Assembly: GCF_025699065.1 (NCBI RefSeq)
Contig: NZ_JAILWF010000001.1
Span: 87,626 to 151,625 of the forward strand
Length of the DNA stretch: 64,000 bases
Direction: 5' to 3'
DNA from: Nitrosarchaeum sp.
GTDB taxonomy: Archaea > Thermoproteota > Nitrososphaeria > Nitrososphaerales > Nitrosopumilaceae
The notes beneath the pieces were generated by a model. The model made no database searches and had not been told where the DNA came from. It worked only from the letters and a program-made list of their open reading frames with translations. Numbering within the stretch: the stretch's first letter is position 1; the number at the start of each line of letters is the position of its first letter. Made by a program: the position numbers and the translations under genes. Shown here piece by piece: positions 47,503 through 64,000 of the stretch.

Positions 47503-50500
47503 TTAATCCTGAACCTTTACTCTACCCATTTCAAGATTTCTTAGAAACGTAGAACCTTCTTCATCATATCCATTGATAAATACAAACATGTCATATTCTC
47601 CTGCAGGAATTTCAGTACCGCCTGATACGTCTCTGTCAGGTCTATTTTGAATATCCCAAAAGTAGATTTTTCCAATATTATCAACTGGAATAAATATACT
47701 GTCTCTGTCCTCATCAACTCTCCATTCGTTATTACCACCACCGGTATTACATGGGTCTGATTCTGTAGAATTTACCGAACAAATAATTCCGGCATATGAA
47801 ACATCGCCATCAGGATCCTTGAATACAGCTCTTGTTCCTTGATACACAAGCCAGCTGCCTTCCGGACCTACATTGTATATGGTTACTTCCAATCTATCAC
47901 TTTTATCATATGTCCAATACGATATGAATGGAGTATCAGGTGGAGGAATTTGTATAAGACTAGATGTTGGAGTATGTGTCTCATCATCTATTTTAAAATT
48001 TAATTGAAGAGGGTACCACACGTTAGGAGTAGACTCGACATAATTAACAGTAAAATTCAGTCTATCAAGATTAGACATTGTAACATTACTTAATGGAATT
48101 GTATAATTAAAAACACCATAAGTTGAATCATCATCAACGCCATTTCCCATGGAATCATAAAATGGAACATCAAGATCAATTGCAGTTGCAATTGTTTCTG
48201 TGTTTATACCAAGTACAAAATCCGATTTGGTAAATGATATGTTGATTTTATGTGCAGCTATTCCATAATTAGTACGAGCCAATTCTAAAACTTCTGGACT
48301 TGCACTGAGTTCTTTATTGTTCCAATGTATAACATCATCAATCATACCGTGAAACCAATTACCGTTTTCTGCAGAATTACTACCAATGTACCATTTACCA
48401 TCAGTGTCAACAGAGTCAGTTCCAGGATGATTAACATTTTCATTTATTGTCTCAAGAGTATTACCTGCAAGATCAGTAACATACAAATCACAACGATCGT
48501 TTTGAGATTTTCTAACAGCAGCGATATGATACCATTGTTGATCATCATATCGGTTTACACTTTTACATGTAGTTGTGTCACTACCCCCAACATCCATATT
48601 AAATTCAAATACCACTTTTCCAGTATTTGCCTCCAAAAAGATTCTATAGTAATCACATGATGGACAGGTACCTGAACCTTCAAATGCAACCATGTGTTGA
48701 TCAGTAGATCCTACAGCTGCAGCGGTTTTGAACCAAAGGGTAGTAGTATCGGGTTTACTGGTAATATCATTTCCATTAGACGAACTTACATCATTAATGC
48801 TTCTAAAACATGTATTTACGCCATTAAAGACATATGCGCCAGAACCATGAGGTCCACCGTTAGCTGAATATGTGGGAGATTCTGCGCCAGATACAGAATA
48901 CTCAATAGTCAAAATTGGAGCGTCAGAACCGCCACCAGTATCATATGAATCAGCTCTTCGTTTATCATTTGATGAACCAGAAACTCTTTCAACAAAGATG
49001 TTTATGTCTTGATTGTTATTCCAACCTGCTCTGTTAACAATTTCTTGAATAACTGAATTAAGTAGAGTATCAGGGGTAGAATAATAATTATTATTACTCC
49101 AATTTTCAGGGGACCAATTTGCACTTGCACTAGTACGAGGTCTGTTACTAGGAGATAAGTTGTTTGATGATTCAGAAAACGTTGTGGCATCATCTGTTGC
49201 TTCTGCATCAAATTTCAGAGTAATAGAATCGGAATCACTGCTATCTGCTCTGAAAGTCAAATATGCTTTTGAAATTATAGCATTTTTTGGAATATCTATA
49301 TTTGTAAATCTCATTCCAACGTATTGATCTTCATTACCATCATAAGGCATTTCCAAATCGCTACTACCAGTATCTGTAGTTCCAGATGGGTTACGTTGTT
49401 CTGCATCGTCACTACTTGAATTAACTTGTACTGTTTCTGTAAATGATGCACAACCTTGAATGTCTCTATCAGAAGAACCTTCAGAGTTATCTTGAACTTC
49501 AGAGTTTGTGTTAAAATGAAATATCATATCTTCGCCTTCACCTACCAAACTATCAGGCATTGCTTCACTTTGTAAACGAAGTGAGGTCACCCAATCTCCA
49601 GCTGGAATATTTATTTCGTTAGAACCAGTATTGGTAAAAAATGTGGCAGGTGTAGAATCTAGATCAATTTTTAGACCATTACTGCCACCATCAGGACTTG
49701 CAGAGAACATTTGATATTGCCCAGATGGAGTTCGATCAGTTTCTTCATGAAGTATCAAAATACTACTATCTACACCATTTGATTGCAATCCTAAAGAAGA
49801 AATTGCGGTTCCGGATTCCAGAGCAGATAAGATATCTCGTACCTCAACAGTGGTAGTTGCAGTATTAGAAGGAATTCCATTTTCTAAAGAGGTGGTAAAA
49901 TGAATTTGATTAGAATTGATACCTTCAATGGTGTAAGTCCATGTGAATGCAGCTGTCTCTCCAGGTTTAAGACGTGGATAAAATGAAGGGGTAGGACCAG
50001 ACACATAAGTTGCACTACAATCTGGAATACAAGTACTGTCATCAATAGTAGGAAATTCGGTCGGAGTTAAATTCAAAATTGCAGCAGGATTTGTAGAGTT
50101 GTTTGTAACACGCATCAAAATAGTTGCATCAAACGAGTTGGAAATTGTTGGAGGAATAGAGCGTGCAGTTACATACAAACTAGATGAACCAACAGAATTT
50201 ACATAAAATGTTTTAATTGTTCCCCTATCAGAGATCATTTTCATAGTATATCCTTTTGTAGAATCCATATCAAAATCTACAATGTCAAGCAAATTTACTT
50301 GATTACCAGGAGCAATAATTTCTCCAATATCAAATTTTCTAACAGAATCTGGAGTTCCAGTCTCTTCTATCCATAATGTTTTAACACCTAATGGAACTTG
50401 ACCCGTATTAGTCACTACCCCGTCTAGTTTGTCTAAAGGAGTTATTTCTACAGATGTTATTTCAAAGGCTTCAGTTTGTTTCTCTTTTTGTCTTTTTTCT

Positions 50501-50631
50501 TCAGTGATTAGAGATTCAGAAAAATCACTTAAAATATTCATGCTATAAGTGACATAAGATAGAGATCCAATTACAATTGCTACAAGAAAAACAGTTCCAA
50601 CTATTGCACTAAGGCCCCTATGACTCCTTAT
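47503..50631 (-). CDS. Giant pilin-like LamG surface protein (probable ATA start)
   Basis: 1042 residues if it starts at the ATA at 50631. The ATG at 50541 lacks the export signal. In-frame from the ATA: a basic RSHRG and then LSAIVGTVFLVAIVIGSL, a class III (type IV pilin) signal peptide. An SD (AGGTGATC) lies 5 bases before the ATA, which overlaps the pilin stop (ATAA). Beyond come Ig-like beta domains (about 40-260), a carbohydrate-binding-like sandwich (YVGMRFTNIDIPKNA, about 400-570), and a LamG domain (about 580-760). C-terminal beta-rich modules finish it. Probably a surface adhesin assembled with the minor pilin. No ATG, GTG or TTG exists in frame upstream. Confidence 0.8.
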   Translation of the reverse strand: MRSHRGLSAIVGTVFLVAIVIGSLSYVTYSMNILSDFSESLITEEKRQKEKQTEAFEITSVEITPLDKLDGVVTNTGQVPLGVKTLWIEETGTPDSVRKFDIGEIIAPGNQVNLLDIVDFDMDSTKGYTMKMISDRGTIKTFYVNSVGSSSLYVTARSIPPTISNSFDATILMRVTNNSTNPAAILNLTPTEFPTIDDSTCIPDCSATYVSGPTPSFYPRLKPGETAAFTWTYTIEGINSNQIHFTTSLENGIPSNTATTTVEVRDILSALESGTAISSLGLQSNGVDSSILILHEETDRTPSGQYQMFSASPDGGSNGLKIDLDSTPATFFTNTGSNEINIPAGDWVTSLRLQSEAMPDSLVGEGEDMIFHFNTNSEVQDNSEGSSDRDIQGCASFTETVQVNSSSDDAEQRNPSGTTDTGSSDLEMPYDGNEDQYVGMRFTNIDIPKNAIISKAYLTFRADSSDSDSITLKFDAEATDDATTFSESSNNLSPSNRPRTSASANWSPENWSNNNYYSTPDTLLNSVIQEIVNRAGWNNNQDINIFVERVSGSSNDKRRADSYDTGGGSDAPILTIEYSVSGAESPTYSANGGPHGSGAYVFNGVNTCFRSINDVSSSNGNDITSKPDTTTLWFKTAAAVGSTDQHMVAFEGSGTCPSCDYYRIFLEANTGKVVFEFNMDVGGSDTTTCKSVNRYDDQQWYHIAAVRKSQNDRCDLYVTDLAGNTLETINENVNHPGTDSVDTDGKWYIGSNSAENGNWFHGMIDDVIHWNNKELSASPEVLELARTNYGIAAHKINISFTKSDFVLGINTETIATAIDLDVPFYDSMGNGVDDDSTYGVFNYTIPLSNVTMSNLDRLNFTVNYVESTPNVWYPLQLNFKIDDETHTPTSSLIQIPPPDTPFISYWTYDKSDRLEVTIYNVGPEGSWLVYQGTRAVFKDPDGDVSYAGIICSVNSTESDPCNTGGGNNEWRVDEDRDSIFIPVDNIGKIYFWDIQNRPDRDVSGGTEIPAGEYDMFVFINGYDEEGSTFLRNLEMGRVKVQD

Positions 50632-51125
50632 GGTGCGATCACCTGAGTTGTAAATTGATTTCCTCGCTCTGTAAATACAAAGATATCGATATCATCACCA
50701 GACATCCATGTATATGTGGCATTAGTACTAAAAGTACCACCAGTTACTATTCCACCATCAGTAAAATAGAAAATTTGCAAGTCTGTTAAACTTGTTCCAT
50801 CAACAAATTTCATTTCAGTTACGTTAAGTCCCAATGTTCCAACATTTGACATCGTAACATTAACACACTTTCCAGGACAAGTAGAAGAGAACCAAACATT
50901 ATCAAAAATAAGATCTTCGTTTATTTTATTTATTTGTGTAGAAAATGCCTCTTCAATTTCTTGTTTTTGAATTGCTAAATTACTATTTGACCACCCTAAC
51001 ATTGCAACCCCCAGTATACTTACAGCTGATATGACAATTGCACTTGTAACAACATTTGCAATAGCACGTCTATTTTTACAATACGTATGAGTTTTATTTT
51101 TAAGATATGTTTTATACGTTGTCAT
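50628..51125 (-). CDS. Type IV pilin-like surface protein
   Basis: 165 residues. A class III signal peptide: basic leader (KNRRA) and then a hydrophobic helix IANVVTSAIVISAVSILGV, the archaeal PibD-processed pilin pattern. The mature part is beta-rich (NVTMSNVGTLGLNVTEM), resembling archaellin/pilin heads, with several glycosylation-like NxT/S sites and two Cys (CPGKC). Its stop overlaps the start region of the LamG protein, so expression is coupled. Likely forms or caps a filament. Confidence 0.85.
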   Translation of the reverse strand: MTTYKTYLKNKTHTYCKNRRAIANVVTSAIVISAVSILGVAMLGWSNSNLAIQKQEIEEAFSTQINKINEDLIFDNVWFSSTCPGKCVNVTMSNVGTLGLNVTEMKFVDGTSLTDLQIFYFTDGGIVTGGTFSTNATYTWMSGDDIDIFVFTERGNQFTTQVIAP

Positions 51126-51677: not shown

Positions 51678-51776
51678 TTTAATAAATAAGGCCTCCAGAA
51701 TTCATTAAACAATGTGTATGTAACATTGGCACACACATAAGAGCATTAACTGTTTAATTAAAGAGATATTGTGCCT

Positions 51777-52799
51777 ATGGAGCAAAAAAGAATCATATCT
51801 TCAGTGAATCATTCTAAGGTAAACACAGACAAGGTTAACCTATCAGTATCAATTTCCAAGATAAAAAAAGACACACACAAGTTATCAAAAATGTATGATT
51901 TTAAAAAATACATGGATTCCTCAGACATGATATTCCCATCAGAGATGCAAGATATGATACCAAAAGATACTCCGCCATATTTGGATAATGGAGAGCATTA
52001 TGTAGAGAGAATTGGAAGGGCCCTAAAATTTTTCAAGCAATGTGCGTTAATTGGGCCCAGTGGAACTGGGAAAACACACATCGTCTATCTGGTAGCCGAA
52101 TTGGCAGGACTTCCAATGTGGGAAATCAACTGTGGTTTAGCAACATCTGTTTTTGATCTTTTTGGAAGATATGTAGGATTGGGAAAAGAGAACTGGATTG
52201 ATGGATTAATTACTGGATGGTGTAGAAAAGGCGGAATATTATATCTCGATGAGGCAAACATGATGAAACAAGACGTTGCAACAAAATTAAACCCGTTATT
52301 GGATCAAAGAGGACACATGGTGCTTACAGAAAAAGACAGTGAAATTATTCACAGACACAAACATGCGTATATGATAATTAGCATGAACCCAGTATCATCA
52401 GAATTTGCAGGTACAAAACCAATCAATGCGGCTATGAGAAGAAGAATGAGCGTATGGTTGAATTTCGATTACATGAGTGTAGGAGATAACATAGACGAAA
52501 AAGAATTCAAGATGGTATCTGAAAGAGGAGGCATATCTTTAGAAGATGCAGAAATTATTGTAAGGATTGGAGCTAAATTAAGACAAGAATACAAAATGGG
52601 CGATCTTCCTTACGGTCCATCGGTAGGAGATTTGGTAAACTGGGCAAAGATTTGCTCAGATGGTGTAGACATTCCAACTGGCGGAGATGAAACTTTGGTT
52701 CCAATGACTAGTGACGATCCAGAAGTTCAGGATGAAGTAAGACAGATAATTAAAAAGGTAATCGAAGGCAAAGTAGCACAACGAAATCGTAAAGTGTGA
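51777..52799 (+). CDS. MoxR-type AAA+ ATPase
   Basis: 340 residues from the ATG at 51777 (a GTG at 51771 adds two). AAA_5-type core: Walker A IGPSGTGKTHIVYLV, Walker B GGILYLDEANMM, sensor 1 ISMNPVSSEF, and the Arg-rich region AAMRRRMSVWL. MoxR ATPases act with VWA proteins as chaperones that mature or activate other proteins. It is directly followed (four bases) by the VWA gene and diverges from the pilin operon. TTTAATTAAA at about 51753-51762 is the likely TATA box. Confidence 0.92.
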   Translation: MEQKRIISSVNHSKVNTDKVNLSVSISKIKKDTHKLSKMYDFKKYMDSSDMIFPSEMQDMIPKDTPPYLDNGEHYVERIGRALKFFKQCALIGPSGTGKTHIVYLVAELAGLPMWEINCGLATSVFDLFGRYVGLGKENWIDGLITGWCRKGGILYLDEANMMKQDVATKLNPLLDQRGHMVLTEKDSEIIHRHKHAYMIISMNPVSSEFAGTKPINAAMRRRMSVWLNFDYMSVGDNIDEKEFKMVSERGGISLEDAEIIVRIGAKLRQEYKMGDLPYGPSVGDLVNWAKICSDGVDIPTGGDETLVPMTSDDPEVQDEVRQIIKKVIEGKVAQRNRKV

Positions 52800-52803
52800 T
52801 TAA

Positions 52804-54366
52804 ATGAAAGAAACAGTAGAGGACGTAGCACACCAAATTTTTTTTGATATATGTGAAAAAAAACCTACTGATGTAGACGTAATTTTTTTAGAAGCTATCA
52901 ATTTTCCAAAATTAGAATACTTGCCAAGAACTACAGCGTATATTCCATTACCTAGGATGGTTAGTGGAAAGAACATTTTTGAAGGAATAATTTTTTCAGA
53001 TTATGAAACAGGGCAAGAAACGATTTGGAATTTATTTTTTGCTACACTCTGTCATGCAGCAGGGCATGCAAAAGTGACTGATTTTAATATATACAAAAAT
53101 TGGATAAAGAACAAAGACAAACAAAAAGCATACAAAATAATTGAATTCATAGAAGATATCAAAGTAAATGATTTTTTAAAGAAATCATTTCCAGAATACT
53201 ATCAAGGCATTAAAAAAATTGATGAGGTTTTTGAAGTATTGAATCAAAGAGACAATATTAAAAAACCAGAATATGCAAAGAAAAAATTTACAGAATATTT
53301 TAATATAAAAAATATAGATATGCAAAAAATCCAAAACGACATTATTGAATTAAACCAAGAAAAGAATGAAAAATTATTAGATATTGCTGATGTATTATAT
53401 AAAAACCAAAATAACATATTAGTTGAAAATGTTCCATATGTAGATCATTATTTTAATCAAAAAAACATATCATGGAAACAAAATATCACAATAACACCAG
53501 AAGGATTGGTTGAAAGAAATGTGCAAAACTTTATCGAGATATGGTTTGAACAATTAAAACGCAGAGCAAAAGTGAGGAAAAGATATGGAGGATTAACTCA
53601 AGATCTTAATTTTGATAAAATTGAATTTGCTCCAGAAAACATTGGCGAATATCTAAGGTTGAAAAATGCCACCCATATGTTTTTGAAAAAATTGAGTAGC
53701 CAGATCAAATTAATTCCTAACGTAATGGATGACGGAGTTCCAGAAGATATGGGATTATTGCAAATGCAAGCAGCTATCCAAGCAGTGGCAGCTCAAAATA
53801 ACAGTATTCAGATTTTTGAACAAGATGACTATAGAAGAATAGAAGAGGAATGGGCAATAGTTTTAGACACAAGTTCCAGCATGAGACTGAAATTTGATGA
53901 AATGAAAAAATTTGCAATATCTCTTGGGGAAGCTGCAAACGAAGTGAATTCAAAAAATGGAAAGTGGGGATTTTTTACTTTTAATAATAATTTTAGAATA
54001 GTAAAAGACCACTATGAAAAATATGATAAAACATCAAGAGCAAGAATAGGAGGAATAGAGATTACAGGATTATCATTTATCGGTGATGCAGTAAAACTAT
54101 GTACTAGAATATTAGAAAGAGAAAATATCGAAAGGAAATATATTTTCCTAGTTACAGATGGGCAACAAGTAGGAACCATTGGAAATACTAAAGACATGGA
54201 AGACGCAGTCATGGAAGCAAGAAAGAAAGGAATCACAGTAATTGCAATAGGGTTTCCTGAAGGAAACTCTAAAATTTTCAATATGGCTATGCCTTATGAG
54301 AATTTACGTAAGACCGTAGCCAAATTCGTGGCAGCATATTCCAGATTGTCTGGAGACGATATCTAA
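52804..54366 (+). CDS. VWA-domain protein, partner of MoxR ATPase
   Basis: 520 residues. Unique N-terminal 345 residues, helical with a metallopeptidase-like patch (TLCHAAGHAKVTDFNIY) where His-x3-His occurs; no full HExxH. The VWA domain at 345-520 keeps the MIDAS DTSSS (Asp355, Ser357, Ser359), a Thr in TGLSFIGDA, and Asp in VTDGQQ, so metal binding is expected. This is the CoxE/NorD-like MoxR-VWA arrangement. The AHAKV His pair could be a remnant peptidase site. No signal peptide: cytoplasmic. Confidence 0.88.
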   Translation: MKETVEDVAHQIFFDICEKKPTDVDVIFLEAINFPKLEYLPRTTAYIPLPRMVSGKNIFEGIIFSDYETGQETIWNLFFATLCHAAGHAKVTDFNIYKNWIKNKDKQKAYKIIEFIEDIKVNDFLKKSFPEYYQGIKKIDEVFEVLNQRDNIKKPEYAKKKFTEYFNIKNIDMQKIQNDIIELNQEKNEKLLDIADVLYKNQNNILVENVPYVDHYFNQKNISWKQNITITPEGLVERNVQNFIEIWFEQLKRRAKVRKRYGGLTQDLNFDKIEFAPENIGEYLRLKNATHMFLKKLSSQIKLIPNVMDDGVPEDMGLLQMQAAIQAVAAQNNSIQIFEQDDYRRIEEEWAIVLDTSSSMRLKFDEMKKFAISLGEAANEVNSKNGKWGFFTFNNNFRIVKDHYEKYDKTSRARIGGIEITGLSFIGDAVKLCTRILERENIERKYIFLVTDGQQVGTIGNTKDMEDAVMEARKKGITVIAIGFPEGNSKIFNMAMPYENLRKTVAKFVAAYSRLSGDDI

Positions 54367-63626: not shown

Positions 63627-64000
63627 TCAATTAGGGATTGTAAAATAAAATGTCGTCCCAACATTTTCTTCGCTTTCTACCCATATTTTACCTCCCAACC
63701 CTTCCACAATTCCCTTACAAATTGCCAATCCTAATCCACTTCCATCTCTTTTTCTACTGGTAGAAGTATCGATTTGATAAAATTTCTTAAAAATCTCTTT
63801 TTGGTTATCCTTAGAGATCCCCACACCATTATCTTTGACAAAAAATTGCATGAAGTCATTATCAGGTTTTGCGCCAATTACAATTTCCCCTTTTTCAGGA
63901 ACTACAAAATCAATTGAATTTTTGATTAAATTAGAAAAAACCTGGTTAATTCGATCTCTGTCACTAAAAATTATAGCATCGCCATCATACTCTTTTAATA
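63627..64000 (-). CDS. Histidine kinase C-terminal fragment (cut by window edge)
   Basis: Open to the window end; 123 residues visible. HATPase_c domain: N box NQVFSNLIKNSIDF, G1 DNGVGI, F box FKKFYQID, G2 GSGLGLAICKGIVEG, ending GTTFYFTIPN. Upstream domains and the phospho-His lie outside. It converges with the acyl-CoA synthetase gene. Could phosphorylate a receiver such as those at 37-39 kb, but nothing shows this. Confidence 0.93.
   Translation of the reverse strand, partial: LKEYDGDAIIFSDRDRINQVFSNLIKNSIDFVVPEKGEIVIGAKPDNDFMQFFVKDNGVGISKDNQKEIFKKFYQIDTSTSRKRDGSGLGLAICKGIVEGLGGKIWVESEENVGTTFYFTIPN

Follow-up and report, generated by a model that had tools for sequence, protein, structure and literature searches.

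Where does translation of a large pilin-like adhesin begin, if no ATG, GTG or TTG precedes its export signal? The question is raised by a pair of overlapping genes in the window, which is the whole 64,000-nt stretch of DNA analysed here and lies on contig C1 of genome G000, an 11-contig assembly. According to the initial annotation, the first ATG of the adhesin (50541) gives a protein without an export signal, and the gene probably opens at an ATA 30 codons upstream, either by real non-canonical initiation or as a sequencing error in a normal start. Ammonia-oxidising archaea are abundant, their pili are little studied, and how faithfully archaeal (eukaryote-like) initiation factors select start codons has been worked out in few models. 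We argue that the window adhesin is very probably translated from AUA as the coupled downstream partner of the pilin, by termination-reinitiation, a reading built on the comparison of gene sequences.

The gene pair and its predicted start codon

The pair consists of the following parts, given in the direction of translation.

50628..51125, minus strand: upstream pilin-like gene, 165 aa, with class III signal NRRAIANVVTSAIVISAVSILGVAMLGW and a weak ArlF match; translationally upstream partner
50637..50644, minus strand: Shine-Dalgarno (SD) match AGGTGATC, complementary to the G000 16S 3' end GGATCACCTCC, 5 nt before the ATA
50628..50631, minus strand: 4-nt stop/start overlap ATAA, made of the pilin stop TAA (50628-50630) and the ATA; ATGA in five close ATG orthologues, ATAA or ATAG in 15 other species
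50629..50631, minus strand: ATA predicted to start the LamG pilin-like adhesin, aligned with orthologue and paralogue starts; no alternative start before the signal
47503..50631, minus strand: coding sequence of the large pilin-like adhesin, 1042 aa from the ATA; frame intact, UpsA-like N-terminus, Laminin_G_3 domain, dN/dS 0.24-0.32 against relatives
50545..50631, minus strand: class III (prepilin) signal, IRSHRG then hydrophobic LSAIVGTVFLVAIVIGSLSYVTY, kept in every family member examined
50539..50541, minus strand: first canonical in-frame ATG, lying past the signal (residue 31, within the conserved motif TYSMN)
48304..48789, minus strand: LamG/concanavalin-like domain, residues 615-776 (PF13385, E 5e-11)

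The pilin ends in CCATAA, the adhesin frame opening within its stop codon, and a five-base spacer, GCACC, separates the ATA from AGGTGATC, which matches the anti-SD over 8 bases (the 16S 3' end of G000 is GGATCACCTCCTTAG). Upstream of the ATA the adhesin frame is open for 20 codons, among which ATG, GTG and TTG are absent, and is closed at TGATGA. Translated from the ATA, the adhesin begins IRSHRG-LSAIVGTVFLVAIVIGSL, a class III signal whose short basic N-terminus closes with R/K-G/A before a hydrophobic stretch and which about 137 relatives share, and a start at the residue-31 ATG would delete it. The initial annotation had described this same arrangement, with the ATA overlapping the pilin stop five bases past an anti-SD match, RSHRG and a class III signal read from it, and no canonical codon in the upstream frame, and its description holds on every point, the signal indeed lying upstream of the first ATG. 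Two in-frame ATT codons, at -15 and -8, were considered as starts and rejected; they lie within the overlapped pilin, and orthologue G004 has an in-frame TAA between ATT and ATG.

A single sequence, that of G000, stands behind the ATA call in the window, and its start column was compared with those of relatives by tblastn with the adhesin N-terminus. The ATA falls precisely on the ATG with which five close orthologues begin (G010, G012, G004, G017 and G014), all of them ATGA overlaps, and on the GTG that opens a full-length paralogue within G000 itself (C1:205125-208244, 67% identical), so that the start position of the window adhesin is not in doubt. By the initial annotation, orthologues lacking the upstream signal would have spoken against the ATA start; the signal is conserved in all of them and the ATA column falls on their start codon, so its presence in the window is not due to chance. 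By this alignment the change in the window is one base, ATGA to ATAA, with the pilin stop preserved. At the paralogue's site the collinear flanks in G014 lie just 7 bases apart, which points to a recent gain in G000 or a loss in G014.

Recurrence of ATA in Nitrosopumilaceae

Profiles of two subfamilies, the LamG-type A1 and A2 (roughly 570-615 aa), were run against 250 Nitrosopumilaceae genomes and the 5' ends retrieved, yielding about 137 good unique N-termini. Membership in the ATA set was defined solely by the absence of ATG, GTG and TTG before the signal, CTA, GTA and TTA being equally eligible, and one gene (L037) was left out where the contig stops just upstream. In sixteen of the N-termini the signal is preceded by no canonical start, and an ATA lies at the stop of an upstream class III pilin, as ATAA or ATAG. 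They represent 16 species, four genera and both subfamilies, as follows.

A1: window gene (G000)
A1, genus g9, six genes, ATAG or ATAA: G259, G252, G240, G254, G239, G251
A2, genus g12, seven genes, ATAA or ATAG: G197, G178, G046, G196, G190, G174, G143
A2, genus g17, two genes: G033, G275

In these genes the first canonical start lies 11-31 codons further on, into or past the signal, and all 16 possess an SD-like match of 4-8 nt ending 4-6 nt before the ATA; the layout of upstream pilin, SD and ATAA or ATAG overlap is thus that of the window and 15 further species. G033 is a single-contig genome (1,620,156 bp), and in G049, a sister species within g17, the very same position reads ATGA. The remaining family members start mostly with ATG, some with GTG and TTG. 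Quick trees, in which some branches are only moderately supported, call for at least two start-codon changes in A1 (three by parsimony) and, by parsimony, five in A2, where seven of the nine ATA cases belong to one genus. The conservation of an ATA at the pilin stop in 15 other species strongly supports the first option of the initial annotation, real non-canonical initiation; its picture of a hidden ATA start stands as far as the start, judged by sequence, is real, and needs amending in that the start is no one-off and belongs to a recurrent type in the adhesin family.

Other departures from canonical starts were seen in the same family, and the ATA, ATT and ATC cases together are all AUN codons. 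One adhesin of G161 (L235, on C27) has ATT at the start column, where relatives have TTG (L183, in G149) and ATG (L175, in G200), the start codons of all three following the pilin stop by one base and GTGAC by about 6 nt; an AUU start is probable here. Near the g9 ATA clade, the frame of L236 (G246, on C29) is shifted relative to the pilin stop and only an ATC, 3 nt after AGGTGA, precedes the signal, making an AUC start possible. Three g12 genes of A2 (L237 in G149, L238 in G195 and L239 on C139 of G161) have both the overlap ATA and an in-frame ATG eight codons on, before the signal in each case, and may have dual or shifting starts. A pilin-like match in G283 (L215, C1:12711-13217) contains three in-frame TGA codons and is probably a pseudogene.

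ATA initiation is no general habit of these genomes and recurs in one kind of gene pair. Of the 368 orthologue pairs compared between 360 kb of the G000 contig and G014 (roughly 92% identical), the window adhesin alone has lost a canonical start with none nearby to take its place. NTAR overlaps were also screened over three stretches (G000, 360 kb; G014, 400 kb; G033, 400 kb), and outside the pilin family no other ATA start backed by an SD turned up. A sister family, f8, is present in 6 of 70 genomes and uses canonical starts throughout. A search for other hidden starts by upstream conservation returned only overlaps with very conserved neighbours, which gave no usable candidates, and no relatives of the adhesin were found in viral contigs. 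Genome-wide, GGTGATN{3,7}ATG occurs 82 times against 27 in the reversed control and the ATA version 99 times against 66, counts that are uninformative for single genes.

Selection on the genes and on the codon

Reading frames are intact in all 16 ATA genes, at 389-1042 codons. Between genes that both carry ATA, dN/dS is 0.05 for G197 and G178 (dS 1.2), 0.05 for G033 and G275 (dS 2.3) and 0.21-0.35 for the g9 pairs (dS 0.6-1.9). By these ratios the ATA-bearing adhesins are under purifying selection over near-saturated synonymous divergence, with ATA retained throughout.

The codon itself shares bases with the gene that it overlaps, its first A being the third base of the last pilin codon. Of the single-step changes to the second or third base of ATG, ATA is the only one that leaves the upstream gene a stop (TGA becoming TAA), so that a penalty-free loss of the start would at first resemble an overlap ATA. 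At four-fold-degenerate sites that form the A of ATA, however, the base is A in 10 of 10 cases, whereas sites of this kind in those pilin genes are A in 35% (the counts are partly non-independent through shared ancestry), and the pilin stop varies between TAA and TAG while the A stays, all of which argues against penalty-free loss.

Alternative explanations

Neither sequencing error nor gene death can account for the multi-species ATA pattern. Both come into question for the window copy alone, where together they hold a small share of the probability. The better placed of the two, improbable as it is, supposes a true mutation that silences or down-tunes the window copy, the GTG paralogue covering its function. 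That paralogue is full-length and is missing at the matching site of G014, as such an account would have it, but the 1042-codon frame of the window copy is intact, with a dN/dS of 0.24 against the paralogue, and the same start type persists in g12, g17 and g9 genes under strong selection, from which it follows that ATA is compatible with function. A sequencing or consensus error in the window, the true codon being ATG in the usual ATGA overlap, is slightly less probable again: the closest orthologues do carry ATGA, G000 is in 11 contigs, and the window start is the sole loss of its type in the 360 kb compared, but ATA is conserved in 15 other species with independent assemblies, including a single-contig genome, and a random error would have had to strike, by coincidence, the one family in which ATA starts recur. 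Least credible by far is a -1 frameshift at the pilin end, giving a pilin-adhesin fusion later cut at an internal class III site and making the start codon irrelevant, for although the adhesin frame is -1 to the pilin and, in several species, stays open over some 20 codons ahead of the ATA, no slippery heptamer is evident by eye at the pilin end, the open stretch in G254, G251, G033 and G275 reaches back only 5-11 codons from the signal, leaving almost no room for a shift, the ATG, GTG or TTG of orthologues stands at exactly the ATA column, and we know of no internal class III processing of a fusion.

The adhesin and its genomic surroundings

Residues 5-143 of the adhesin match NCBIfam UpsA (NF046073) at 32.8 bits (E 6e-8), below the curated cut-off of 130 bits, so that the protein as predicted has an UpsA-related N-terminal domain and is not UpsA. 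A prepilin peptidase (PF01478, C1:154134-154442) and a secretion ATPase (PF00437, C1:159043-159528) lie about 15-23 kb from the pair, in a stretch (C1:153.8-161.6 kb) that also holds two pilins and a gene labelled FlaJ-like by its position and length. The likeliest role of the adhesin would be that of a rare, pilus-tip-like adhesive pilus subunit.

Beside the pair, from about 54390 to the window's end at 64000 and on to C1:160183, an 18-kb block is inverted with respect to G014 and 79% identical to it, against about 92% in the flanks; it contains a class II tRNA synthetase, gatA/gatB, an acyl-CoA synthetase, the prepilin peptidase and the pilus ATPase, and looks like a replacement or an old inversion. 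Divergent from the pilin operon, at 51771-54366, are genes for a CbbQ/NorQ-type AAA ATPase and a VWA protein, with no metal enzyme seen adjacent. Such pairs usually activate metal enzymes.

The archaeal type IV pilin families UpsA and ArlF (census in PMC4858521) resemble the window adhesin in class III signal, UpsA-like N-terminal region and nearby prepilin peptidase and ATPase. Unlike those pilins, the adhesins are about 390-1040 aa long, and the window gene has a LamG-type C-terminal domain and falls short of the UpsA cut-off; no mention of start codon or LamG was found in the census.

A proposed mechanism for AUA initiation

In translation from AUA by termination-reinitiation, the reading preferred here, a ribosome would end the pilin at UAA or UAG, be held by the SD-like sequence within the pilin 3' end, and restart on the overlapping AUA with initiator Met-tRNA through a third-position C-A mismatch. 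Such a mismatch may be most easily tolerated where a terminating ribosome is already parked on the codon and held by the SD. The class III signal of the product would lead to processing by prepilin peptidase and to assembly into a type IV pilus as a rare LamG-bearing adhesive subunit. Restart at AUA is probably inefficient and would give few adhesins per pilin, a low yield that, we hypothesise, suits few copies per pilus. We infer all four elements of this scheme, namely initiation at AUA, insertion of Met, reinitiation in preference to de novo initiation, and a lowered adhesin:pilin ratio.

Near-cognate AUU starts occur in bacteria, for example in infC and pcnB, and NCBI table 11 lists ATA, ATC and ATT as possible starts. 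Like the window ATA, the bacterial AUU, AUA and AUC starts are AUN codons mismatched to the CAU initiator anticodon at the third position; unlike them, it would be read with the archaeal factors aIF1, aIF1A and aIF2, sits on the stop of another gene, and recurs across species in a surface-structure family. In E. coli, initiation at ATT (AUU) runs at about 0.3% of the ATG level, a figure from Hecht et al. that PMC10666635 cites. A reconstituted bacterial system accepts only Watson-Crick pairs at the first two start bases and partly tolerates weaker pairs at the third (PMC10158994).

Huber et al. 2019 (PMC6728339) proved termination-reinitiation at 4-nt ATGA overlaps in Haloferax volcanii, and gene overlaps are enriched among subunits of complexes (Huber et al. 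2023, PMC10666635). The window pair shares with those ATGA and TGATG pairs the 4-nt overlap (in the ATGA form), an SD inside the upstream gene and products that are plausible subunits of one complex, and differs in its AUA start and its ATAA (elsewhere ATAG) overlap. No ATAA overlap was found in PMC6728339 or PMC10666635, the latter mentioning ATT only as a non-canonical start that may occur rarely at -5 overlaps, and the open-access literature searched yielded no conserved archaeal AUA start.

Implications

A wider reading, which we offer as a serious possibility that falls somewhat short of probable, is that AUA (and AUU, possibly AUC) at the pilin stop is a coupling device evolved in Nitrosopumilaceae, in which reinitiation relaxes the third-position check and AUG has repeatedly been swapped for AUA, fixing a low adhesin:pilin ratio. 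If true, this device would be a case of selected, lineage-wide use of a near-cognate start in archaea. Annotation that accepts only ATG, GTG and TTG would truncate adhesins in at least 16 species and drop their pilin signal, and the truncated adhesins would escape surface-protein predictors. If AUA is tolerated after termination at an overlapping stop, these gene pairs would provide a natural test system for start selection relaxed by reinitiation.
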